From Bacteroidota bacterium (GTDB lineage: Bacteria > Bacteroidota > Bacteroidia > Bacteroidales > UBA5342): a stretch of 51,412 nucleotides of DNA. Shown piece after piece: positions 3,691-43,009 of this stretch (the first letter of the stretch is position 1; each line of letters begins with the position of its first letter). The DNA is taken from assembly GCA_003249935.1 (NCBI GenBank), contig QKHT01000089.1:1-51412 (forward strand), given 5' to 3'. The position numbers and the translations under genes were made by a program. The notes below the pieces were generated by a model, which was not told where the DNA came from, made no database searches, and saw only the letters and a list, made by a program, of their open reading frames with translations.

Positions 3691-5121
3691 TTATTTAAGT
3701 GTGATAATAACCGATCCGTGAGGTGGTATTGAAGTTTGAAAAAAATCGGTAAATGAACCTAAATCGGCTTTTTTCCAAAGATCGCGTACATTATATTTAT
3801 TTAATGGAAAACCCGCTTGAGCAAAACTCAGCTTTACATCCTGAACCGATTCGCCGATATTAAACAACGCAGCATTGTACACACCTTCCAATTGGTTTTC
3901 CGAAATCCAAACGACACTGTTGCCGCTGCGAAGTACCTGCTTTGGATGTTTCGAATGCTGATTCACATTCAAAACCTCGCTATTGGTAAGCAGCGAAAGT
4001 GTAAAATCGTCGAGTGTAAGTAAGTCGGCCCCAATCATTAACGGACTTTGTGCTATGGCCCACAAATTCATCAACGTATACTGCTCATCTTTTGTAAATG
4101 CACTATTGCGTTCATTACCATGTGGCCGGTCCTGCAACGAAAGGCGACCAACCGGTAACATATCGGCATCGGGCCAATGGCCCGGCCCGGCAAATGACGA
4201 CCATGCATTCATCAGCTCAAAATTATGATACAAACTTTCCCACTTATCCCAAAAATCGGTAGAAATACGCCACATATTGGAATTTGCCTGCATATGGTGC
4301 GCAAAACCTAACGGTGCTTCGCCACACGACAAACTCAAAACCATTGGTCTGCCACATTGTTTTATCGCATTGTTCATCAACTCAACCTCTCCTTTACTAT
4401 AATTGGGCACCATCATATCGTCGGCTTTAATAAGGTCTACGCCCCATTCGGCATACAACCTGAACAACGAATTATAATACGCCTGAGCACCTGGTTTTGT
4501 AGCATCCACACCATACATATTATTACACCACGAACACTGATCGAATGGCTCAGCGATTTCAGTTGCTAAGGCCGTACTACCCATTATTTTACAACTATCG
4601 AAATACGCCTGCACGGGAATACCACGCATGATGTGTAATCCAAATTTCAATCCTTTGCCGTGCACATAATCGGCCAGTGGTTTTAAGCCTAAACCATTTT
4701 TCGACGACGGGAATCGAATTTCGGAGGGCAGCAACCGACCATATTCATCCATTTGCAACCGTTCTTCGGGTTGGCCACCAACACCGGTTTTTATATCGGG
4801 ATGACCTTTACGTTTACCAACCATGGGGTTCGAACCGGGATTGTCGTTAAACCAAATATAGTCCAGCACGGCATAGTTGTACCCGTAAGGCAACAGCTTT
4901 TGGGCCATCACATCTACATTGGCCCGAAACTCACTTTCGGTAATCCGGCAATCGTAGGCATCAAAACTATTCCATCCCATAGGAGGCGTTATTGCCAAAA
5001 TTGAATCTTCTGTTTTTGGTTGAACCGCTGAAGCCATATTGCGTTGTTTATTACTATTGCAGGAAAAAATTGCCGTACAAAGTATGATCCCTGTAAACAC
5101 AGGTTGGATAAATTTACTCAT
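3691..5121 (-). CDS. GH27 family alpha-galactosidase-like lipoprotein
   Basis: 476 aa, glycoside hydrolase family 27 (retaining alpha-galactosidase or alpha-N-acetylgalactosaminidase type). The start gives a lipoprotein signal with lipobox Cys21 (AIFSC), so it is anchored in a membrane, probably facing the periplasm or the surface. The family signature TPPMGWNSFDAYDC begins near residue 45. The nucleophile is probably Asp234 in DLIKADDM and the acid/base Asp289 in WRISTDF; both fit the spacing of the family. The beta-sandwich C-terminus ends in a PHGSVIITL segment typical of GH27. It differs from the second GH27 gene at 20895 (KADDM instead of KFDWC), so substrate specificity probably differs. 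It is monocistronic as far as can be seen. Confidence 0.88.
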   Translation of the reverse strand: MSKFIQPVFTGIILCTAIFSCNSNKQRNMASAVQPKTEDSILAITPPMGWNSFDAYDCRITESEFRANVDVMAQKLLPYGYNYAVLDYIWFNDNPGSNPMVGKRKGHPDIKTGVGGQPEERLQMDEYGRLLPSEIRFPSSKNGLGLKPLADYVHGKGLKFGLHIMRGIPVQAYFDSCKIMGSTALATEIAEPFDQCSWCNNMYGVDATKPGAQAYYNSLFRLYAEWGVDLIKADDMMVPNYSKGEVELMNNAIKQCGRPMVLSLSCGEAPLGFAHHMQANSNMWRISTDFWDKWESLYHNFELMNAWSSFAGPGHWPDADMLPVGRLSLQDRPHGNERNSAFTKDEQYTLMNLWAIAQSPLMIGADLLTLDDFTLSLLTNSEVLNVNQHSKHPKQVLRSGNSVVWISENQLEGVYNAALFNIGESVQDVKLSFAQAGFPLNKYNVRDLWKKADLGSFTDFFQTSIPPHGSVIITLK

Positions 5122-10662: not shown

Positions 10663-11274
10663 TTATCGTACATTGCATGTAAGCAACCGTTCATCGCCAA
10701 TAAACGCACACAATGTATCGCCCTCTTTCACCGGGCCCACACCTGCGGGAGTTCCGGTAAATATCAAATCGCCGGTTTTCAGTGTAAAATATTTCGATAC
10801 AAAGGCAACGATGGTATCAATAGAAAAAAGCATTTCTCCGGAAACACCCGACTGAACAACTTCGCCGTTTTTTTCAAGTCTGAACCGTATTTGGTTCGTT
10901 GGTGATAATGAAGCGCAGGGAACGAACCGGCCCACAGGGGCCGAGCCGTCAAAACCTTTAGCCAATGTCCAGGGCAAACCATTGCTTTTGAGTTTGGCCT
11001 GAAGATCGCGAGCAGTAAAATCGATACCAACGGTAATTTCATCGTAGTAACGGTGAGCAAAGCGGGGTGCGATATTTTTACCCACCTTGCAAATTTTAAC
11101 CACCAATTCCACTTCGTGATGAATGTCCGAAGAGAAAGGTGGAATAAAAAATGGCTTTTCGTTGGTTACCAAAGCCGAATCGGGTTTTATAAAAATAACC
11201 GGTTCCGATGGAACCGGGTTATTAAGTTCGGCTGCATGCTGTATATAATTACGCCCTACACAAATTATTTTCAT
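10663..11274 (-). CDS. Fumarylacetoacetate hydrolase (FAH) family protein
   Basis: 203 aa, the small FAHD1-like size. Family members are acylpyruvate hydrolases, oxaloacetate decarboxylases or hydroxyhepta-dienedioate isomerases; sequence alone does not settle which. Visible features are IICVGRNYIQHAAELNN at the start, the metal-binding HHEVELVVKI region, GIDFTARDLQ, LAKGFDGSAPVG and the C-terminal GDLIFTGTPAGVGPV. It lies 13 bp after the exonuclease gene and is probably co-transcribed with it, though no functional link is obvious. Confidence 0.9.
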   Translation of the reverse strand: MKIICVGRNYIQHAAELNNPVPSEPVIFIKPDSALVTNEKPFFIPPFSSDIHHEVELVVKICKVGKNIAPRFAHRYYDEITVGIDFTARDLQAKLKSNGLPWTLAKGFDGSAPVGRFVPCASLSPTNQIRFRLEKNGEVVQSGVSGEMLFSIDTIVAFVSKYFTLKTGDLIFTGTPAGVGPVKEGDTLCAFIGDERLLTCNVR

Positions 11275-11287
11275 GGTAATTACAATT

Positions 11288-12049
11288 CTACATTTGACTT
11301 AACTTAATGGCTGTAAGCACTTTTTTGGTATACAACGAAAAATCGCCATTCATCATCCACGCGTAGTATCCCGGTTCAGCCTTAAATACATCCACTACTT
11401 TGCGTCCCTTGTGTTTGCCAAAGTTAAATACTTCCTCATTCTTTTCGTTATAAACCACACGTCCGGCATAATCCACATTTTTAGTAAATGCCGAAAACTC
11501 CGACAAATATTGCACGTCATTTTTAAGCATTTCGTATTTATCGAGCTGAGCTTTAAGCACTTCGTATGTAGCCCTTACATCGGCTTCGGCACTATGGGCG
11601 TTAATCAGTTCTTTATTGCAATAGAACTGATAAGCCGCTCCCAGAGTTCTTTGCTCCAACTTATGAAAGATGGTTTGAACATCAATAAATTTTCTTTTCT
11701 TTAAATCAATGTCCACATCGCAACGTAAAAACTCTTCGGCAAGCAGTGGAATATCGAACCGGTTGGAATTGTATCCACACAAATCGCAACCTTCTATAAA
11801 TTTGGCCACCGTGCGGGCCAGGGCTTTAAATGTCGGGGCATCCTTTACGTCTTCATCGGAAATACCATGAATTGTAGTAGTGAATGCAGGAATAGGCATT
11901 TCGGGGTTTATAAGCCAACGTTTAAACTCCTCGGCACCGCCGGGCATAACCTTTAGGGCCGCAAGCTCTACAATACGATCGCTCACAATATTTGTACCGG
12001 TAGTTTCGAGATCGAAAAACACGATTGGATTCTTGAGATTTAACTCCAT
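11288..12049 (-). CDS. DEDDh 3'-5' exonuclease (DnaQ/ExoX-like)
   Basis: 253 aa. The exonuclease domain (about 1-175) shows all motifs: Exo I FFDLETTG (Asp13, Glu15), Exo II GYNSNRFDIPLL, and Exo III with His and Asp in AHSAEADVRAT. The C-terminal about 60 residues (VFNFGKHKGRKV, PGYYAWMM) resemble the small C-terminal module of ExoX-type nucleases. It may proofread or trim DNA ends. It follows dnaN on the same strand but is separated by a terminator, so the two are neighbours rather than one transcript. Confidence 0.9.
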   Translation of the reverse strand: MELNLKNPIVFFDLETTGTNIVSDRIVELAALKVMPGGAEEFKRWLINPEMPIPAFTTTIHGISDEDVKDAPTFKALARTVAKFIEGCDLCGYNSNRFDIPLLAEEFLRCDVDIDLKKRKFIDVQTIFHKLEQRTLGAAYQFYCNKELINAHSAEADVRATYEVLKAQLDKYEMLKNDVQYLSEFSAFTKNVDYAGRVVYNEKNEEVFNFGKHKGRKVVDVFKAEPGYYAWMMNGDFSLYTKKVLTAIKLSQM

Positions 12050-20867: not shown

Positions 20868-20895
20868 AAATAAGCGGGATGATTCCCGCTTATTT
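20868..20895. terminator. Bidirectional terminator, lipoprotein / GH27
   Basis: The palindrome AAATAAGCGGGA / TCCCGCTTATTT with loop TGAT spans the short gap between two convergent stop codons and ends on the GH27 stop. Confidence 0.9.
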
Positions 20896-22088
20896 TATTT
20901 TGTTTCGTAAAGTCTTACCATTAAAACACCATGAGGAGCAATAATTTGACTCATGTTTTGTTTTGTAGTACCAATCACTTTATGCTGCCACAAATCGCGT
21001 ATGGCGTACTCCTTTTTGCGGATATTGATATCGCGTGCAAAATACATTGTATTTTTGAGCCAATCGTAATTTAATTTCCATTCCGTTTCACCCCGGTTCA
21101 TAAAACAAATCGCTATTTCACCATTATTAAGTGGTTTAGCCCAAATTTCATGGTCGCCCATATCCATAAATCTTATGGCTTGTTTTCCCAAACTGTCCTG
21201 ATTTACAGCAATAACATCTGCATTGGTAAGTATATCGCGGGTTTCTTTATCCATATTACGAATATCATTACCCGCCATCAGTGGTGCAGCCATCATGCTC
21301 CACATTGAAAAATGCGTTTTGTATTCGTCTGATGTCATTCCACCATTTCCAATTTCGAGCATATCGGGATCGTTCCAATGACCCGGACCGGCATACTTAT
21401 ACAAATCGGCCTGTAAATCAATAATGTTCAGCACGCCTACACCGCCCCAATCAAACAGACAATTATAGCAATCGCGTATATCGGCCGTTGTTCTCCACAA
21501 ATTTCCGATACCTTTTCCCCAAAGCCATGGTTTCGATTCGCCCCACTCACAAATACTGAATACAATGGGTCGTTTAACACTTTTAAGTGCATCGCTCATG
21601 GTTTTATAAGCGGCTTCTGCCTTTTGTCCCTCATCATAGCACCAGTCGAATTTAAGATAATCGACTCCCCAGGCTGCATATTGCATTGCATCCTGAAATT
21701 GGTATCCACGACTACCGGGTCGTCCCTGACAGGTTTTTGAACCGGCACAGGAGTAAATACCAAATTTAAGTCCAATGCTGTGAATGTAATCGGCCAGGTA
21801 TTTAATGCCATGTGGGAATCTTTTGGCATCGGCCAATATATTACCGGCACTATCTCGACCAACCTGCCAGCAATCGTCTATCACTACATACTCGTAACCG
21901 GCCTTAGCCATTCCGGCTTTTACAATGGCATCGGCCATGCCCATTATAAGCTCTTCGCTTACATTACAACCGAATTTGTTCCAACTATTCCAACCCATAG
22001 GAGGAGTAAGTGCAAGATTATTAATATCGCCACCCCGGGCAAAAGCAGATATCGAAAATAATAGAATGAGATTGAGAAGTGTTTTCAT
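20895..22088 (-). CDS. GH27 alpha-galactosidase
   Basis: 397 aa with a cleavable signal peptide (MKTLLNLILLFSISAFARG). It hydrolyses terminal alpha-galactosides with retention. The family hallmarks are complete: LTPPMGWNSWNKFGC near 27-41, VVIDDCWQ near 68-75, nucleophile Asp148 in YLKFDWC, and acid/base Asp203 in WRTTADIRD. The conserved PGHWNDPDMLEIGNGGM segment and a beta-sandwich C-terminus follow. It is closer to the classical eukaryote-like and plant-like GH27 enzymes than the lipoprotein at 3691. It is probably periplasmic. Confidence 0.94.
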   Translation of the reverse strand: MKTLLNLILLFSISAFARGGDINNLALTPPMGWNSWNKFGCNVSEELIMGMADAIVKAGMAKAGYEYVVIDDCWQVGRDSAGNILADAKRFPHGIKYLADYIHSIGLKFGIYSCAGSKTCQGRPGSRGYQFQDAMQYAAWGVDYLKFDWCYDEGQKAEAAYKTMSDALKSVKRPIVFSICEWGESKPWLWGKGIGNLWRTTADIRDCYNCLFDWGGVGVLNIIDLQADLYKYAGPGHWNDPDMLEIGNGGMTSDEYKTHFSMWSMMAAPLMAGNDIRNMDKETRDILTNADVIAVNQDSLGKQAIRFMDMGDHEIWAKPLNNGEIAICFMNRGETEWKLNYDWLKNTMYFARDINIRKKEYAIRDLWQHKVIGTTKQNMSQIIAPHGVLMVRLYETK

Positions 22089-22130: not shown

Positions 22131-22164
22131 AAAAATGTCTTCCGGAAATCCGGAAGACATTTTT
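22131..22164. terminator. Terminator of the RRM gene
   Basis: A 16-bp stem (AAAAATGTCTTCCGGA / TCCGGAAGACATTTTT) lies 18 bp downstream of the RRM gene on the minus strand and has A/T flanks on both sides. Confidence 0.9.
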
Positions 22165-22182: not shown

Positions 22183-22569
22183 TTAGTAACGTCTTGAACC
22201 ACGGTCACCATAACCGCCGTCTCTGCTACCGCCACGGCTTCCGCCGCCGCCACCGCCACGGTTGAAACCACCGCCGCCGCCACGGTTGAAACCACCGCCA
22301 CCACGGCTGTCACGTGAACCGCCTTCGGTACGTGGACGAGCTTCTGATACAGCAATTTCTTTTCCGTCAAATTGAGCACCATTGAGTTCTTCGATAGCTC
22401 TTTTAGCTTCTTCTTCACTTTCCATTTCAACAAAACCGAATCCTTTTGAGCGGCCAGTGAATTTGTCTTTGATAACTACAGCCGATTTAACTTGGCCATA
22501 CTCTTCGAAAATCTGCGATAAATCTTCGTTCTCAACTTTAAAACTAAGATTTGCAATAAAAATGTTCAT
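22183..22569 (-). CDS. Glycine-rich RNA-binding protein (RRM)
   Basis: 128 aa. A single RRM (about 1-80) has RNP2 IFIANL and RNP1 KGFGFVEM. The C-terminal tail (about 85-128) is rich in Gly, Arg and Ser and includes an 8-residue repeat (GFNRGGGG) encoded by a 24-bp tandem DNA repeat at 22255-22299. Proteins of this layout are RNA chaperones, often cold-induced. It has a strong promoter and a leader of about 130 nt, which fits post-transcriptional control. It is monocistronic. Confidence 0.95.
   Translation of the reverse strand: MNIFIANLSFKVENEDLSQIFEEYGQVKSAVVIKDKFTGRSKGFGFVEMESEEEAKRAIEELNGAQFDGKEIAVSEARPRTEGGSRDSRGGGGFNRGGGGGFNRGGGGGGSRGGSRDGGYGDRGSRRY
22255..22299. repeat. 24-bp tandem repeat inside the RRM gene
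   Basis: The 21-bp unit that starts GCCACGGTTGAAACCACC occurs at 22255-22275 and again at 22279-22299, a period of 24 bp or 8 codons. It keeps the reading frame, so copy number could vary without breaking the gene. Confidence 0.8.
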
Positions 22570-22971: not shown

Positions 22972-25203
22972 TTAACGATTCCATTCCGGGATTGATTCGC
23001 CCTTTAAAGTTCTTAAAAAGAAGTCGATTCGCTTTCTTTTTCCATAATCGCCACCCATCGTATGGTTTGAGCCGGGAATAACAACCAGTTCGAATTCTTT
23101 TTTAGCGCGAATCAATGCATTGGCCACCTGCATGGTACTTGCGGGATCTACATTATCGTCGACCTCGCCGACCAATAACATCAGTTTCCCTTGCAATTTT
23201 TCGGCGTTCACTACATTCGAACACTCCTCGTAGGCTTTGCCCACGGGATATCCCATCCATTGTTCATTCCACCATATTTTGTCCATCCGGTTATCGTGGC
23301 AACCACAAGCCGAATAGCAGGATTTGTAAAAATCACCATGGAAAAGCATGGCAGCCAGTGCATTTTGGCCTCCGGCCGAACAGCCATAAATCCCAACACG
23401 TGCAGTATCTATCTCGGGATATTTTTCGGCAGCAGCTTTTATCCACTTAATCCTGTCGGGAAAGCCGGCATCCTTTAGGTTCTTCCAACACACATCATGA
23501 AAAGCCTTTGAACGGTTAGAGGTGCCCATTCCATCTATTTGTACTACAATAAAACCCATTTCGGCCATATCCGTAAGATACCGCTGTACGGGACTATAGG
23601 ATTTGGGCACGAACGATCCATGCGGTCCTGCGTAAATATACTCTATTACAGGGTATTGCTTCGACGCATCGAAGTCCGATGGCCGCACAATTACACCCCA
23701 GATGTCGGTAACCCCATCACGCCCCTTTGCTGTAAACACTTCGGGCATTTTTATTCCCTTGGCATCAAAAGCCGAAGCATCGGTACTTTCGAGCACTACC
23801 CCTTTAGCCTCCGGTTCAACCCCAATACTTACCGTTACTGTCGGTAAATCTACACGCGAGTAGCTATCAATCAAATATTTATAATCGGGGCTGAACCATG
23901 CTGTATGGTTCGCATTACCGGGCGTAAGGTCGCGCAATCCGGTGCCATCGAGGTTCACCTTATAATAGTGAATAAAATAGGGATCTTCGCCAATGTTCTT
24001 TCCCGAACCTTTAAAAATCATCCAACGCTCCTTATCATTTACTTCTACAATGCCCCGAACCACCCAATTGCCTTGAGTAATAGGATTTTTCACATTGCCG
24101 GTTTTCGCATCAATCAAATAAAAATGGTTATATCCACTACGTTCAGACGACCAAACGATATCACTTCCATCATTTAAATCGTATCTAAATTTTTTACCGC
24201 TGTAATCAATAAAGGTAGAACTAATTTCATCTATTAACACTTTTGTGATTCCCGTTTCGGCATTGACACTCACCACCTGGTAGCGTTGGTGCCCCCGTTG
24301 GTTAAACTCAAAGGTAAAGGCAGCATTGTCTTTTCGCCACACGATATTGGTGATATCAAACTGATTTTCGAACAATTGAGTATCAACTGTAATTTGCTTA
24401 TTATGAACCACATCAAACAACGACGGGCGCTTAACAGGCAAGGCATCGCCAGGTTTTAAATATTCGCGTTTTTGCAATTTTGGTTGAACCTGCCCACTGG
24501 GGCTCGACTCTATAAACCAAATATAATGTTTGGTATTTAACCTTATCTTATTGGTTACAAACTTTTTACCATCGGGCGACCATTTAATCTGAGAACTATA
24601 TCCATCTCCGGCCGATCCATCAAACGAAAGCTGTGTCTCATTCTTCCCCGATTTATCTTTTACCCAAACATTGTATTCCCTAATGTATGCCAACTTTTGG
24701 CCATCGGGCGATGGGACCATGCGGCTGCTATCCTCCTCATCCGATTCGGCCCAGTACTTTGCCGGTGCAGATTTATCTTTTACTTTTTCACCCTTCTTAA
24801 GGTCCGAACCGATTAGTTTAAAGGCCCAATGGTATCCTCTAAATACAAAATCCACTTGCTTCAATCCGCTATCAACCTCAACCGACGTAATGGCAAGATT
24901 GAAAGGAGATACCGACTCATTCATTTCCTTTGAAAGAAGACGAGCCAGCTTGTTGGTGTCGAACATTAACGACTTTTGGGCTTTTTTTGCCTGCCACAAA
25001 TAATACACAGTACCCGATGGTGTATTTACAGAATACATACAGGTGGAGTTGTTAATCCATTTTGGTGCTACATTATTGTAATACACCAGTTTCCTGAAAT
25101 TTTCGATGGTATCATTCCGTTCGTAAAGTGCCTTTAGCGAGGCTTTCTGACCATTAACCAATGCTGTTGAGGTTATTAAAACAGCAATTAATAATTGTTT
25201 CAT
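22972..25203 (-). CDS. Exported S9 family (DPP IV-like) peptidase
   Basis: 743 aa with a signal peptide (MKQLLIAVLITSTALVNG). The N-terminal two thirds form a DPPIV_N beta-propeller with WD-like repeats (WSPDGKKF, VPSPDGQKLAY). The C-terminal alpha/beta-hydrolase domain has the triad Ser609 in YGCSAGGQ, Asp near 683 in GEVDDNVDP, and His714 in GSNHTMGG. Classical DPP IV carries a Glu-Glu motif in the propeller that reads the free N-terminus; I cannot find it here, so strict X-Pro dipeptide release is not assured. It starts 15 bp after the glycyl radical enzyme gene and is the last gene of that operon. Confidence 0.9.
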   Translation of the reverse strand: MKQLLIAVLITSTALVNGQKASLKALYERNDTIENFRKLVYYNNVAPKWINNSTCMYSVNTPSGTVYYLWQAKKAQKSLMFDTNKLARLLSKEMNESVSPFNLAITSVEVDSGLKQVDFVFRGYHWAFKLIGSDLKKGEKVKDKSAPAKYWAESDEEDSSRMVPSPDGQKLAYIREYNVWVKDKSGKNETQLSFDGSAGDGYSSQIKWSPDGKKFVTNKIRLNTKHYIWFIESSPSGQVQPKLQKREYLKPGDALPVKRPSLFDVVHNKQITVDTQLFENQFDITNIVWRKDNAAFTFEFNQRGHQRYQVVSVNAETGITKVLIDEISSTFIDYSGKKFRYDLNDGSDIVWSSERSGYNHFYLIDAKTGNVKNPITQGNWVVRGIVEVNDKERWMIFKGSGKNIGEDPYFIHYYKVNLDGTGLRDLTPGNANHTAWFSPDYKYLIDSYSRVDLPTVTVSIGVEPEAKGVVLESTDASAFDAKGIKMPEVFTAKGRDGVTDIWGVIVRPSDFDASKQYPVIEYIYAGPHGSFVPKSYSPVQRYLTDMAEMGFIVVQIDGMGTSNRSKAFHDVCWKNLKDAGFPDRIKWIKAAAEKYPEIDTARVGIYGCSAGGQNALAAMLFHGDFYKSCYSACGCHDNRMDKIWWNEQWMGYPVGKAYEECSNVVNAEKLQGKLMLLVGEVDDNVDPASTMQVANALIRAKKEFELVVIPGSNHTMGGDYGKRKRIDFFLRTLKGESIPEWNR

Positions 25204-25218
25204 CTGATTTTAAATAAA

Positions 25219-27582
25219 TTATATTGATTCATGTTCGGTGCGCAAAATTATCTCTTCCTGAAGCGATTCTCCCAAATCGTTAAAATAATCGCTGTAACCA
25301 GCAACCCTGACAATCAGATCGCGGTACAATTCCGGATTTTTTTGTGCCTTTCGCAAAGTATCAGCATTAACCACATTGAGTTGAATGTGATGGCCGTAGT
25401 TCGAAAAGTAGGTGCGAATTAGATCCTTAACGCTTTCGTCTGCTTTTGGATGAGAAAAATAACCCGGCGTAAACTTTTGATTAAGCAACGTGCCACCGGT
25501 TTTTAAGTGATCGAAACTAAGTGCCGATTTTATTACGGCAGATGGGCCCTGAGTATCGGCTCCCTGTGCAGGCGATATCCCTTCCGACACCGGCATTCCG
25601 GCAATTCGCCCATCGGGTGTTGCCCCCAACACTTTACCAAAATAAATATGGCAGGTTGTTGGCAACATATCTACATGGGTAACAGCACCCCGAGGGGTAA
25701 TATGGCCATCTACTGCCGCGAAGAATGCATCGAAAACAAATTTTGCCTCAACATCGGCGTACGAAAGGTCGTTGCCATATTTTGGCGTTTGATATATCAA
25801 TATAGCCTGAAGCTGTCCCTGTCCGTTAAAATTTTCGTGCAATGAGTGTAACAATTTGTGCATTGTTACACTCTGTTTATCAAACACATGATATTTTATA
25901 GCCGAAAAACAATCGGTAACGGTTCCAATACCTACACCTTGAATATAGCTTGTATTATACCGTGCCCCACCCCTTCCGTAATCTTTGGCATTCTCGATAC
26001 AATCTTCAATAAACAAAGATAAAAACGGCGTAGGCATGTAATCCATAAACACCTTTTCGATAATATCATTGCCGCGAAGTTTTATTTCGACAAAATGGTT
26101 AAGCTGCTTTACAAAAGCAGCTCGAAAATCGTCCATTGTTTTAAATTGTAACGGGTCGCCGCTTTGCATTCCAAGCATTTTGCCCTGAACCGGATCGAAC
26201 CCGTTATTTAAAGTAATTTCAACTATTTTGGGCAGATTAAAGTAACCCGTTAAAAAATAAGCTTCCGTCCCGAACGCTCCGGCCTCAACACAACCACTGG
26301 CCCCACCGTTTGTGGCATCAACCCTGCTTTTTCCCTGGTTCATCAGCTCCTTAATAATTGCATCGGTATTGAATACAGAAGGTTGGCCAAAACCTGTTTT
26401 AAGAATATCTAAGGTATCAAGAATAAGTTTGTCGGGGTTTTTATGGCTCACCTGAACCATAGAACTGGGCTGAAGCAAACGCATCTCTTTTATTACAGAC
26501 AATATCAGATAAGTAAGATCGTTGGTACCGTCGTTACCCTCGGGGGTAAGTCCACCAAGGTTTATAAGCGAAAAATCGGTATAGGTACTGCTTTCCTGTG
26601 CAGTTATTCCCACTTTCGGGGGCGAGGGATGATTATTGAATTTTATCCAGAAGCATTGCAACAATTCCGTAGCCTGTTGAATAGTTAGCGTGCCCTGTAC
26701 CAAATCGGCACTAAAATAAGGCCACAAATTCTGGTCGAGCCGTCCCGGATTAAACGAATCCCAAGGATTGACCTCAGTAATTACACCTACATGAATGAAC
26801 CAATAATGCTGCAAGGCTTCGTGAAAGGTTTGGGGTGCATTGGCCGGAACACGTTGGCATATTTTGGCCATTGCCATTAATTCTTCTTTCCTAACAGCAT
26901 CCAATTCTGTATCGGCCATCGCCATCAGGGCTATTGCATGCCGTTCAGCAAACCGAACAATAGCCTTCGCAGAGGTCTTCATGGCCTCAAGTTGCCCATA
27001 CATTTCAATGTAATCGGGGCTGGCAGAATTCAAATCTTTTTGTTTTTTTTTGCACGCCGTTATTAAATCGTTCATGCCGGTTTGATAGAGTTTTTGCCCG
27101 GCAACAGTATGCCCGGGTGCGCGCTGCTCCATAAATTCAGTAAAAATTCCGGCAGAATATGCGTCTTTCCAATCATTCGGTAAAGCCGACATTACTCTGT
27201 CGCGATTCGTTTTTCCTGTCCAAAACGGTATAATCGATGCTTCGTAAATCTGCCGCATCTCTTCGCTTACCTTAAAGTTTACCTTCTGCCGCGAATGCAA
27301 AACCTCCAAATCTTCGAGTGTATGCAAACAAATTTCAGGATAAGTCGGTGTAGCTTTAGGTGCCGGACCACGTTCACCAACAATTAATTCGCCATCATTA
27401 ATACAAATAGTTTTCCGGTTCATTACATGATAAAACGATTTGGCACGCTGCAATGGCACTGTATCTGAGATTTCTATCATATCCCGATAAAATTCGGTAA
27501 CGAGCTCTGCACGTTCGGCCGATAGCGCATTTATAGCCGATAAACTCTGCTCGCGAAGTCGGTTTATTCTATTGGTTTTCAT
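25219..27582 (-). CDS. hypD: Glycyl radical enzyme, probable trans-4-hydroxy-L-proline dehydratase
   Basis: 787 aa, the length of HypD. The glycyl radical loop VRVAGYSDYFNDLGE near the C-terminus places the radical on Gly762. The thiyl Cys is Cys431 in GASGCVEAGAFG, with Glu433 two residues on, a signature of the dehydratase branch rather than pyruvate formate-lyase. Asp275 in NPWDSFNPGR and the segment ESSTYTDF (330-337) match HypD as I recall it. HypD removes water from trans-4-hydroxyproline to give pyrroline-5-carboxylate, which ProC reduces to proline. Other dehydratases of the branch remain possible. It sits 50 bp after its activase gene and 15 bp before a peptidase gene. It needs strict anaerobiosis. 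Confidence 0.82.
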   Translation of the reverse strand: MKTNRINRLREQSLSAINALSAERAELVTEFYRDMIEISDTVPLQRAKSFYHVMNRKTICINDGELIVGERGPAPKATPTYPEICLHTLEDLEVLHSRQKVNFKVSEEMRQIYEASIIPFWTGKTNRDRVMSALPNDWKDAYSAGIFTEFMEQRAPGHTVAGQKLYQTGMNDLITACKKKQKDLNSASPDYIEMYGQLEAMKTSAKAIVRFAERHAIALMAMADTELDAVRKEELMAMAKICQRVPANAPQTFHEALQHYWFIHVGVITEVNPWDSFNPGRLDQNLWPYFSADLVQGTLTIQQATELLQCFWIKFNNHPSPPKVGITAQESSTYTDFSLINLGGLTPEGNDGTNDLTYLILSVIKEMRLLQPSSMVQVSHKNPDKLILDTLDILKTGFGQPSVFNTDAIIKELMNQGKSRVDATNGGASGCVEAGAFGTEAYFLTGYFNLPKIVEITLNNGFDPVQGKMLGMQSGDPLQFKTMDDFRAAFVKQLNHFVEIKLRGNDIIEKVFMDYMPTPFLSLFIEDCIENAKDYGRGGARYNTSYIQGVGIGTVTDCFSAIKYHVFDKQSVTMHKLLHSLHENFNGQGQLQAILIYQTPKYGNDLSYADVEAKFVFDAFFAAVDGHITPRGAVTHVDMLPTTCHIYFGKVLGATPDGRIAGMPVSEGISPAQGADTQGPSAVIKSALSFDHLKTGGTLLNQKFTPGYFSHPKADESVKDLIRTYFSNYGHHIQLNVVNADTLRKAQKNPELYRDLIVRVAGYSDYFNDLGESLQEEIILRTEHESI

Positions 27583-27632
27583 TATGTATTGTTAATGTGT
27601 TTAAAATGATTAATACTGAGGGATTAATTATG

Positions 27633-28433
27633 TTAAATGCTGCCTATGGTTGCGTTGAATCCATGGGTGATATACAAGTTGCATATTGCCTCCATCTCAC
27701 CAGAAGATAATGGCATAACATCTATAAGCATATTCTTCATCTGCAGGTTTTTATATTTATGAAAACCTGCACGATTAAACGGCAATAAAAAAACGGGGTA
27801 ACATTTGGAATCCAAATCTGATAGCACTCTGATATTTTCCAATTGCATTTCAACCGATGAATTAATCCCCGGAATTAACGGAATTCGTAACCACACAGGT
27901 TTTTGTGCGGAACGTAGTGCCTTAAGATTTTTAAAAATGGGCTCATTCGACGTATTTGTAAATTCTATATGTTTTGCCCTATCTGCCAATTTTATGTCGT
28001 AAAGAAACAGATCGGTATTTTTTGCAGCATCCATAAGGCTTTGGCGTTTGCAAAAACCACTTGTATCAACAACGGTATGAATCCCGGCCGATTGACATCG
28101 TTCAAGCATCTCCAACAAGAACGCATGCTGCAAAAGCGGTTCACCCCCGGAAAAAGTAACGCCACCGCCTGATTGTGTCATCAGATCCTTGTCCTTAAGT
28201 ATTTCCTTCATTAAGGCCTCCGGTTCATACAAAACACCATAAGTTTTTGGCATCGAATAGTTTGTGCCATTTACACCATAACTTTCGGTAATGGTAACCG
28301 GAGACTTGGACTGACTTTCGGGGTTGTGACACCAGATACAGCTTAGCGGACAACCTTTAAAAAAAACAGTGGTCCGGACACCAGGTCCATCGTGAATACT
28401 AAAGCGCTTGATATCGAATACAATACCGTGCAT
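27633..28433 (-). CDS. hypE: Glycyl radical enzyme activase (radical SAM)
   Basis: 266 aa. The radical SAM cluster is Cys28-x3-Cys32-x2-Cys35 in GCPLSCIWCHNPES, after the PFL-activase signature FSIHDGPGVRTTVFF. It uses S-adenosylmethionine to install the glycyl radical on the partner enzyme. The stretch from about 40 to 85, where most activases of dehydratase-type enzymes carry a two-cluster ferredoxin domain, has no cysteine at all, so only one iron-sulfur cluster is evident. It is the first gene of the operon with the glycyl radical enzyme and the S9 peptidase. The hypE symbol follows from the neighbour. Confidence 0.87.
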   Translation of the reverse strand: MHGIVFDIKRFSIHDGPGVRTTVFFKGCPLSCIWCHNPESQSKSPVTITESYGVNGTNYSMPKTYGVLYEPEALMKEILKDKDLMTQSGGGVTFSGGEPLLQHAFLLEMLERCQSAGIHTVVDTSGFCKRQSLMDAAKNTDLFLYDIKLADRAKHIEFTNTSNEPIFKNLKALRSAQKPVWLRIPLIPGINSSVEMQLENIRVLSDLDSKCYPVFLLPFNRAGFHKYKNLQMKNMLIDVMPLSSGEMEAICNLYITHGFNATIGSI

Positions 28434-28625: not shown

Positions 28626-29375
28626 TTAATTTACAATCAATTGATTTGAAAAAGCTTTGGAATTTCCGTCTATGCGAATAAAGTAATTCCCTTGCGCCAG
28701 ATTTTCGAGTTGAACCTTTAGAATTGAACCTTTTTGCTGGTTAATTGGATAAACCGCTTTTACATGTCCGTTGGCGTCGTAAACCTTGAGCACTTTACAA
28801 TGATCTTCAGGAATTTCGACATTGGTAAACGAATTGGTTACCGTAGGATACAAATTTAGCCGGGGCTGCTCGGGTTGTGGTTGAACCGGGGCTGCTGCTT
28901 TAAAAGATACATCACTGAATGCCACGGAACCCTGAAATTTTTTACCCGGATTAAGATACACTATCAAATAAACATTATCAACCAAATTTACCCGACTAAT
29001 TAAATCTCTGAGATCAAATACTATCCGCCCATATTCGAGACTTGCGGAAACATTTTGCACTCCTGATTTGGCATCTGAAACAAAATTTGTTCCATCGGAC
29101 AAATCAATTCTTATAGCCACATTTTCGGTGGACTTTACAGACAAATACAAAAAAGGATTATCAACAATTTCATTGGCTTTAACAACCACAGTGAACGATT
29201 CCCAAGGATTTTTATCAACCGATACTAAAATCTGATTATCTGCTGCTGCAAAATTGAAACTTCCATTGCCATACCAATTTGATACATTTTCTGTTGCATT
29301 AGAATTTGCCAAACATTTGCTGCCAATAATGAACAGAGAGAGAAACAGAACCGATATTTTAAATGTTAATTTCAT
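28626..29375 (-). CDS. Secreted protein with T9SS type A sorting domain
   Basis: 249 aa from the ATG at 29375 (MKLTFKISVLFLSLFIIG). I chose this start because a perfect promoter ends at 29394, which leaves the upstream ATG at 29396 outside the transcript and the one at 29387 with almost no leader. The signal peptide is followed by a beta-rich domain (about 25-165) that resembles carbohydrate-binding modules, a short Pro/Gln linker (VQPQPEQP), and a C-terminal sorting domain (NLYPTVTNSF, LKVYDANGHV, GNYFIRIDGNSK). Such a domain directs export through the type IX secretion system. The ligand is unknown. Confidence 0.85.
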   Translation of the reverse strand: MKLTFKISVLFLSLFIIGSKCLANSNATENVSNWYGNGSFNFAAADNQILVSVDKNPWESFTVVVKANEIVDNPFLYLSVKSTENVAIRIDLSDGTNFVSDAKSGVQNVSASLEYGRIVFDLRDLISRVNLVDNVYLIVYLNPGKKFQGSVAFSDVSFKAAAPVQPQPEQPRLNLYPTVTNSFTNVEIPEDHCKVLKVYDANGHVKAVYPINQQKGSILKVQLENLAQGNYFIRIDGNSKAFSNQLIVN

Positions 29376-29393
29376 TTGAAAATTCATCTGCTT

Positions 29394-29425
29394 CAAATTT
29401 ACAATAAAGTAAATTATAATCCAAA
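29394..29425 (-). promoter_or_regulatory. Promoter of the T9SS cargo gene
   Basis: On the minus strand, TTTG (29425-29422) and TAAATTTG (29401-29394) are 20 nt apart, a full match to the Bacteroidota consensus. It also decides the start codon of the gene. The remaining DNA to 29790 is AT-rich and shows no gene; a three-codon frame (ATG AAT GAT TAA at 29643) is too short to support. Confidence 0.8.
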
Positions 29426-41638: not shown

Positions 41639-43009
41639 TTACGCCATTTCGCGTTCAACTTCCTCAACCGTTATCGGAATTCTTTTGCCCATCACCCTTG
41701 CTCCGTGGCTGGTTATTTCTAAGGTGTCTTCGAGCCTGACACCGCCAAAACTGCGATAGTCCGTTAATTTATCGAAATTAATAAAATCACTATTTGTACC
41801 TGCTGCCTGCCATTGATCGATAAGTGCCGGAATAAAGTAAATTCCCGGTTCGTTTGTAACTACAAAACCCGGTTCGAGCCTTCGAGCCATACGCAGGTAG
41901 GCTGTGCCAAACTGTTCCGAACGTTTCACCTCGTGATTGTAGCCCACAAAGGTTTCGCCATAGTTTTCCATGTCGTGCACATCGAGGCCAAGCATGTGGC
42001 CCAACCCGTGAGGGAAAAAGAGGGCATGAGCTCCTGATGCGACTGCCTCGGCCGTATTGCCTTTCATTAGTCCCAATTGCTTTAAACCATCGGTAATAAC
42101 CGTAGCGGCCAAAAAATGCATATCGCGAAACAATACGCCGGGTTTTGCATTTTCGAGTACTGCGTTATTGGCAGCCAGTACAATATCGTAAATCTCTTTT
42201 TGCTTTTGGGTGAACCGGCCGCCAACCGGAATTGTGCGCGTATTATCGGTGGCATAATGGCGGTACGATTCGAAACCGGCATCGACAACCACCAGGTCGT
42301 TCTCAGCCAACAAATTATGATGGTGGTGATTGTGGAGTATCTGGCCGTTTTTCGAGAGAATAATGGGGAATGATATGCCAGCACCATATTTAAGTGTAAG
42401 CCCTTCCATTGTTCCTGCAATTTCGCTTTCGTACACACCCGGTTTGGCCATGTGCATAGCCGTGGTATGTATCAGGTAGGCCACTTCCATGGCTTTTTCC
42501 AGTTCGGCCAGCTCGCACGCTTCTTTTACCGAACGCAACGTAACACAAGCATTAATGAGTACCTGGCTGGCTTTTGGTTCCGAACCAATAAGTGCCGCAA
42601 TTTGCATTTGCTGTTCGGCACGGTAAGGCGGTAAAATATGAATAATTCGACCCTCTGCCACAGCTTGTGCCACTTTTTCGTTAAGTTTTTCGGGTGAACC
42701 GGTATTCGAAATACCGCATCGTTCGGCTTTTTGTTGCAACGGTTCGAAAGATCCAATCCAAATGGTATCTTCCATGGTCGGGTCTTCGCCAAAAAGCATC
42801 GATTCGCCACTATCGGCATCGATAACACCGGTAAGACCGGGTTCATCCAAACCAAAAAAGTATAAAAATGTGCTATCTTGTCGAAACCGGTAAATGTTTG
42901 CCCGGTAGTTCATGGGCGAGTCGGTATTACCTGGTATAAGAATTAAGCCACTTTTTACCAAAGCGATCAAACGATCACGGCGTGTTGCATAAGTATTGGA
43001 ACTGAACAT
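41639..43009 (-). CDS. pepP: Xaa-Pro aminopeptidase (M24B)
   Basis: 456 aa. It removes an N-terminal residue from peptides with proline at position 2. The N-terminal aminopeptidase-P domain (about 1-140) precedes the pita-bread catalytic domain with all five metal ligands: Asp243 in VVVDAGFE, Asp255 in YATDNTRT, His338 in HGLGHMLGLD, Glu387 in VTNEPGI and Glu427 in GVRLEDT. It has no signal peptide, so it is cytoplasmic. A minus-strand TAACTTTG box at 43040-43047 is the likely promoter. It would complement the proline-peptide theme of the hypD operon. Confidence 0.95.
   Translation of the reverse strand: MFSSNTYATRRDRLIALVKSGLILIPGNTDSPMNYRANIYRFRQDSTFLYFFGLDEPGLTGVIDADSGESMLFGEDPTMEDTIWIGSFEPLQQKAERCGISNTGSPEKLNEKVAQAVAEGRIIHILPPYRAEQQMQIAALIGSEPKASQVLINACVTLRSVKEACELAELEKAMEVAYLIHTTAMHMAKPGVYESEIAGTMEGLTLKYGAGISFPIILSKNGQILHNHHHHNLLAENDLVVVDAGFESYRHYATDNTRTIPVGGRFTQKQKEIYDIVLAANNAVLENAKPGVLFRDMHFLAATVITDGLKQLGLMKGNTAEAVASGAHALFFPHGLGHMLGLDVHDMENYGETFVGYNHEVKRSEQFGTAYLRMARRLEPGFVVTNEPGIYFIPALIDQWQAAGTNSDFINFDKLTDYRSFGGVRLEDTLEITSHGARVMGKRIPITVEEVEREMA

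Follow-up and report, generated by a model that had tools for sequence, protein, structure and literature searches.

We analyzed a 51,412-nucleotide contig of a Bacteroidota bacterium (QKHT01000089.1; the whole stretch is called the window below), which carries three adjacent genes predicted to encode a trans-4-hydroxy-L-proline (Hyp) dehydratase (HypD), its activase (HypE) and an S9-family peptidase. The source genome assembly comprises 4.27 Mb in 326 contigs and is 97.5% complete. The three open reading frames were found at the positions, on the strand and with the lengths that the original prediction had given (266, 787 and 743 amino acids), and the intergenic gaps of 50 bp between HypE and HypD and 15 bp between HypD and the peptidase gene were likewise confirmed. 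The genes, in the order of transcription, are as follows.

27633-28433, minus strand: HypE-type radical SAM activase, short form (266 amino acids), identified from profile scores and the radical SAM CxxxCxxC motif, without a cysteine-rich insert.
25219-27582, minus strand: trans-4-hydroxy-L-proline dehydratase HypD, a glycyl radical enzyme (787 amino acids) with Cys431 and Gly762.
22972-25203, minus strand: exported-looking S9 peptidase with DPPIV_N and Peptidase_S9 domains (743 amino acids), with Ser609, Asp682, His714 and Tyr524 and without the Glu-Glu segment.

The family scores supported the assignment of the 787-amino-acid enzyme as HypD. The protein passed the NCBIfam model for trans-4-hydroxy-L-proline dehydratase (NF043068) with 1138.3 bits (cut-off, 1100), while the PFL2-3 subfamily model gave 593.3 bits and the next equivalog 506.4 bits. 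The best solved chain was Clostridioides difficile HypD (6vxc; 944.5 bits), followed by glycerol dehydratase (496.1 bits); HplG scored 392.3 bits. In the alignment, the window enzyme was 52% identical to C. difficile HypD. Ten residues of the C. difficile enzyme have been reported in eLife to abolish or lower activity when mutated: His160, Asp278, Ser334, Asp339, Phe340, Cys434, Glu436, Tyr450, Thr645 and Gly765 (PMC7077986). All ten are kept in the window enzyme, as His158, Asp275, Ser331, Asp336, Phe337, Cys431, Glu433, Tyr447, Thr642 and Gly762. The GCVE motif (Cys431 and Glu433), the ESSTYTDF segment (residues 330 to 337) and Gly762, from which the likeness to trans-4-hydroxyproline dehydratase had been predicted, are thus present and align with Cys434, Glu436, Ser334/Asp339/Phe340 and Gly765 of C. 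difficile, and the likeness itself was borne out by the family scores and the ten residues. The genome encodes a second glycyl radical enzyme (contig C106, positions 915-2276; L002), which shares 26% identity with C. difficile HypD and has three of the ten residues.

For comparison, we used 393 order-level genomes (the order set), 133 of which had HypD matches at E <= 1e-200, and 80 named loci. From the order set, 100 HypD loci with flanks were collected, excluding the window; all scored at least 1000 bits. The collection omits four further matches of that range (G234, G286, G328 and G360) as well as all weaker ones. The same ten residues were kept in all 176 aligned HypD sequences, the window included. 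Of these sequences, 101 came from the order set and 75 from the named loci, five of which were lost at gene calling; there is overlap between the two sets.

The activase carries the radical SAM motif GCPLSCIWC and passed the general model TIGR02494 (248.1 bits; cut-off, 174.35), and with 250.9 bits it fell below the curated cut-off of 425 for the HypD activase model NF043069. The ferredoxin-like cysteine-rich insert is absent: the corresponding stretch has 59 residues and no cysteine, compared with about 95 residues and eight cysteines in others. Most such activases carry the insert, unlike the pyruvate formate-lyase activase, and the GRM5 activases are described as lacking it (PMC6325248). 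Lack of the insert does not fully account for the low NF043069 score, because the long activase of locus L246 also fell below the cut-off (372.0 bits). When activases were typed as short or long by the insert stretch, all 88 typable activases of the order set were short (10 more could not be typed), and the 56 typable activases of the named loci comprised 35 short and 21 long forms (another 10 could not be typed, including some that are visibly rich in cysteine). A tree of 179 sequences, HypD and one outgroup, was built with FastTree and rooted on a distant enzyme. On it, the activase type (123 short, 23 long) changes only once, while 200 shuffles of the labels gave at least 17 changes. The C. 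difficile activase, which we take to be of the long type, bears that assumed label on the tree. The largest all-short clade contains 147 tips (local support, 0.79).

The third protein of the operon matched the Pfam domains DPPIV_N (154.7 bits) and Peptidase_S9 (153.3 bits). Ser609, Asp682, His714, Tyr524 and Asn684 were unchanged wherever present in an alignment of 40 orthologues, some of them fragments; by presumed analogy with DPP IV, the Ser, Asp and His would form the catalytic triad and the Tyr would serve the oxyanion. The amino end resembles a signal peptide by eye, as it does in most orthologues, and the peptidase therefore looks exported. Its AlphaFold model (pLDDT 82.1) was used for the nearest fold only, and the nearest folds were the Porphyromonas gingivalis prolyl tripeptidyl aminopeptidase (2d5l) and a bacterial DPP IV (5yp1), with a TM score of 0.63 by query length. 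With these enzymes the window protein shares the DPPIV_N propeller, the S9 hydrolase and, by alignment, the Ser, Asp, His and Tyr, but it is only about 22% identical to them in the fold comparison and is missing the Glu-Glu segment, which in DPP IV binds the amino end of the substrate. As predicted, this motif was missing in the window protein, and also in three aligned orthologues. It is retained as WVYEE in the S9 proteins of L163 and L177, whose genes are likewise adjacent to HypD, at distances of 37 and 26 bp. An enzyme without the segment must secure the amino end of its substrate in another way, or else cut internally.

The recurrence of a peptidase neighbour in related genomes had been set beforehand as a test of the prediction, and such neighbours do occur in other genomes. 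A peptidase of a tested family was encoded within 3 kb of HypD at 33 of the 100 loci, on the same strand at 32, and at 27 of the 69 loci with 3 kb of sequence on both sides. At 100 bits or more and with the window included, the families were S37 (19 loci), M24 (13), C69 (9), window-type S9 (5, including the distant one of L133), M64 (4), DPP IV-like S9 (2) and a HExxH protein (1). Genes of the M24 aminopeptidase family lie close to HypD in several relatives. Across 80 HypD genomes, 17 of 46 S37 genes lay within 10 kb of HypD (0.24 expected), as did 8 of 18 genes of the proline racemase family; 36 of the 80 had no S37 gene at all. In 29 S9 stretches without HypD, neither M24_AMP nor S37 gave a match at 100 bits. 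One of these stretches (L230) carries a weaker M24 match immediately ahead of its S9 gene, so the contrast with the HypD-less stretches is clean for S37 only. Within this order, no other tested peptidase family neighbours HypD as often as S37 (L122, L119, L124 and others).

Orthologues of the S9 peptidase itself were found as 35 genes in 34 of the 393 genomes (E <= 1e-180). A full HypD lay within 2.5 kb of five of them, in this genome and in G383, G034, G002 and G116. The binomial probability of this adjacency was about 1e-9, or 1e-7 for 4 of 34 without this genome, values that overstate certainty in assuming an even spread of genes and the independence of related genomes (G219 and G299 belong to one genus). 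HypD was present in 22 of the 34 S9-positive genomes and in 111 of the 359 S9-negative genomes (Fisher p = 2e-4; the near and far counts and the co-presence were compiled by hand from match lists). The S9 gene adjoins both HypD lineages, that of the window in G002 (L209) and that with long activases in G116 (L246). In G002, which belongs to the family of the window genome, the genes for M24, HypE, HypD and S9 are all on one strand; in G116, the order is HypD-HypE-S9-M24, with gaps of 24, 47 and 12 bp, a long activase and a HypD scoring 1188.7 bits with NF043068. The window genome has a single AMP_N gene (E <= 1e-8), which lies 13 kb from the operon and proved to be the Xaa-Pro aminopeptidase predicted at 41639. 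In G107, the distance between S9 and HypD is 10.5 kb. In the named set of 80 loci, HypD occurs with S9 in L016, L018, L025, L026 and L031. Because many of the named loci are short and some share their contigs with the order set, the two sets were not added. G144 has no HypD match at E <= 1e-200, and there a 238-amino-acid HypD remnant (L229, positions 11174-11890) follows the S9 gene by 84 bp. This locus is probably a decayed operon.

Some of the S9 orthologues also have sugar enzymes beside them. A GH127-cat gene (PF07944 type; GH, glycoside hydrolase) was encoded within 5 kb of 7 of the 35 orthologues (G107, G219, G299, G166, G025, G383 and G034), and near S9 in the named loci L026 (Thermophagus xiamenensis) and L031. 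The chance of 7 of 35 was about 3e-7 if a genome has 5 such genes and about 3e-5 if it has 10; the four of the seven genomes that were counted have 6 to 10. An enrichment around HypD itself was considered and rejected as too weak, with such genes only at L165 and L170 of the 100 order loci and at L026, L031 and L037 of the named ones. GH127 follows the S9 subfamily rather than HypD. Genes of GH43, GH97, M64 and SusD also occur near S9 orthologues. The best solved match of the GH127/146-type enzyme of L026 was 5opj/6yqh, which we take to be BT0349, a GH146 enzyme. BT0349 founded GH146, and some GH146 enzymes act on arabinofuranosyl-Hyp, others on arabinan or arabinogalactan protein (PMC10850190), so the substrate cannot be read from family membership alone.

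A protein of about 275 residues with HEFAHxIH and EYWAEG motifs (the HExxH protein) adjoins S9 in L165 and L239 and lies one gene off in L026 and L031. A GH97 protein of L238 contains a relative of it as its C-terminal part. The members are listed below.

L026, 660-1484: HExxH protein.
L031, 872-1723: HExxH protein.
L165, 6081-6929: HExxH protein.
L239, 8059-8877: HExxH protein.
L238, 1674-4391: HExxH protein (C-terminal part).

The members that were scanned had no Pfam or NCBIfam match, and an AlphaFold model (pLDDT 53.4) was set aside with no fold claimed. The protein is possibly a zinc peptidase near S9 and GH127-cat genes.

Two alternative explanations concern the enzyme and its pairing with the peptidase. 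The fold and motifs of the window enzyme are common to glycyl radical enzymes, and it could in principle be another eliminase or a C-N lyase such as an HplG-like enzyme. The wide gap to the best other equivalog, the far lower score against HplG than against 6vxc and the ten kept residues make this highly improbable, and we rejected a misidentification of HypD on those grounds. The S9 gene, in turn, could be a chance or merely co-regulated neighbour encoding a general exopeptidase that does not feed HypD, with HypD serving free Hyp from the surroundings. Several observations favour this alternative or otherwise weigh against the proposed coupling and its setting. Of the 35 S9 orthologues, 30 had no full HypD within 2.5 kb, and a HypD match at E <= 1e-200 was lacking in 12 of the 34 S9-positive genomes. 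No peptidase of the tested families was found within 3 kb of HypD at 67 of the 100 loci, or at 42 of the 69 with full flanks. The promoter scan was no better than chance (30 sites, against 29.2 in shuffled sequences). No GH127/146-type gene lies near the window operon, the genome's four PF07944 matches being on other contigs, and of the GH27 matches found in 58 of the 393 genomes, only that of this genome, among those listed, had a HypD or S9 match within 10 kb. However, the adjacency of S9 and HypD is far above chance and is seen beside two HypD lineages, and the same place is taken by other peptidase families. The link between S9 and HypD is not chance, and a neighbour with no role in feeding HypD is improbable.

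The source of Hyp is less certain. Collagen or gelatin scavenging, in which the S9 peptidase would trim collagen peptides and HypD would use the Hyp, has in its favour the abundance of Hyp in collagen (PMC7077986), the P. gingivalis prolyl tripeptidyl aminopeptidase as the nearest solved fold, and the DPP IV-like S9 genes with WVYEE beside HypD in L163 and L177. Against it, the recurring neighbours of the S9 subfamily are glycan enzymes (GH127-cat in one-fifth of the orthologues, also GH43 and GH97), and no collagenase-like gene was seen among the annotated neighbours, although no search was aimed at collagenase families. The recurrence of GH127/146-type arabinofuranosidases beside the S9 subfamily points instead to plant or algal material. 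We therefore give Hyp-rich glycoproteins of plants or algae about an even chance of being the source, somewhat more likely than collagen, which we regard as unlikely; mixed sources or free Hyp make up the rest. The prediction that Hyp is captured from collagen-like peptides thus stood in its coupling of a peptidase to HypD, which recurs in other genomes, and not in its naming of collagen.

Taken together, the gene content suggests that the operon probably serves the catabolism of peptide-bound Hyp, in what is presumably an anaerobic bacterium, of Bacteroidales type judging by its best named matches, and the route from peptide to Hyp to pyrroline-5-carboxylate (P5C) is well supported by context. 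The exported S9 peptidase would trim Pro- and Hyp-rich peptides outside the cytoplasm. Short peptides would be taken up, and Xaa-Pro aminopeptidases such as that at 41639-43009 may help to free Hyp. The short activase would install the glycyl radical on Gly762, and HypD, via Cys431, would dehydrate Hyp to P5C. ProC could then reduce the P5C, or P5C dehydrogenase could oxidize it to glutamate; the genome has genes for both enzymes on other contigs. The predicted lack of proC holds for the annotated genes of the window but not for the genome, in which proC is on contig C166; P5C dehydrogenase is on contig C139 (758 bits; cut-off, 613.6). A P5CR_dimer match (PF14748) was found in 30 of 80 HypD genomes and in none of the other 50, suggesting that P5C may often be oxidized rather than reduced.

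Other features of the window are as follows.

20895-22088, minus strand: GH27 alpha-galactosidase, by domain match; candidate partner only.
22131-22164: terminator-like hairpin separating the RRM gene from the GH27 gene.
22183-22569, minus strand: RRM protein gene between the S9 and GH27 genes, starting 402 bp downstream of the peptidase gene.
28626-29396: protein with a T9SS (type IX secretion system) sorting domain, upstream of the activase.
41639-43009, minus strand: M24 Xaa-Pro aminopeptidase with AMP_N, by domain match; candidate partner 13 kb from the operon.
3691-5121: second GH27-type alpha-galactosidase on the same contig.

Co-transcription of the GH27 gene with the peptidase gene is doubtful because the RRM gene, the 402-bp gap and the terminator-like hairpin intervene (the scan found 11 terminator-like sites, with 8.4 expected). 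L026 carries the end of a GH27 gene whose product is 68% identical to that of the window over 184 residues. Of the three nearest GH27 relatives (G219, G383 and G299), those in G219 and G383, the two covered by the GH127 search, lie within 5 kb of a GH127-cat gene, and in these genomes GH27 is not near HypD or S9. The GH27 link, with the gene beside S9 or HypD only in this window and L026, is weak. The idea that the whole window is one Hyp locus was rejected, as its flanking genes are annotated mostly as housekeeping or unrelated.

Studies of HypD have focused mainly on gut Firmicutes, C. difficile among them, and on Hyp of host origin. The C. difficile system (6vxc/6vxe), treated together with collagen in PMC7077986, resembles that of the window in the HypD sequence, in the ten residues and in the adjacent activase gene, but the window has a short activase without the insert of about eight cysteines and an exported-looking peptidase next to it. 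The HypBA1-type beta-L-arabinofuranosidase loci with which Bifidobacterium longum and Xanthomonas act on Hyp-rich glycoproteins (PMC10850190) are similar in that GH127/146-type genes lie beside the S9 subfamily in relatives. Those loci take the sugar, whereas here the peptidase and HypD would take the peptide and Hyp, and the window has no such gene nearby. For anaerobic Latescibacteria, extensin breakdown with a GH127 beta-L-arabinofuranosidase has been proposed in silico; that proposal, in the part devoted to it, combines sugar release with general peptidases and does not mention HypD (PMC4454575). In the literature searched (open-licence papers only), no paper was found on short HypD activases, which proves little, on the pairing of HypD with peptidases in Bacteroid bacteria, or on Hyp-rich glycoproteins or plant cell walls together with glycyl radical enzymes.

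The core pathway is already known; the new elements are the coupling to exported peptidases and the clade of short activases. In a large clade of Bacteroidota, HypD is accompanied by a simpler activase and often lies beside peptidases of several families. Comparing the two kinds of activase offers a natural way to study the role of the extra clusters. As a tentative proposal, to which we give somewhat less than even odds, the S9 subfamily, the GH127/146 beta-L-arabinofuranosidases, GH27, the HExxH protein and HypD would make up an anaerobic route that strips and digests extensin-like glycoproteins and uses the Hyp of the backbone as a nutrient, in Bacteroidota mostly through a separate HypD clade whose activase lacks the extra iron-sulphur clusters. 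If the glycoprotein reading is true, anaerobes have a means of feeding on the polypeptide of plant cell wall glycoproteins.

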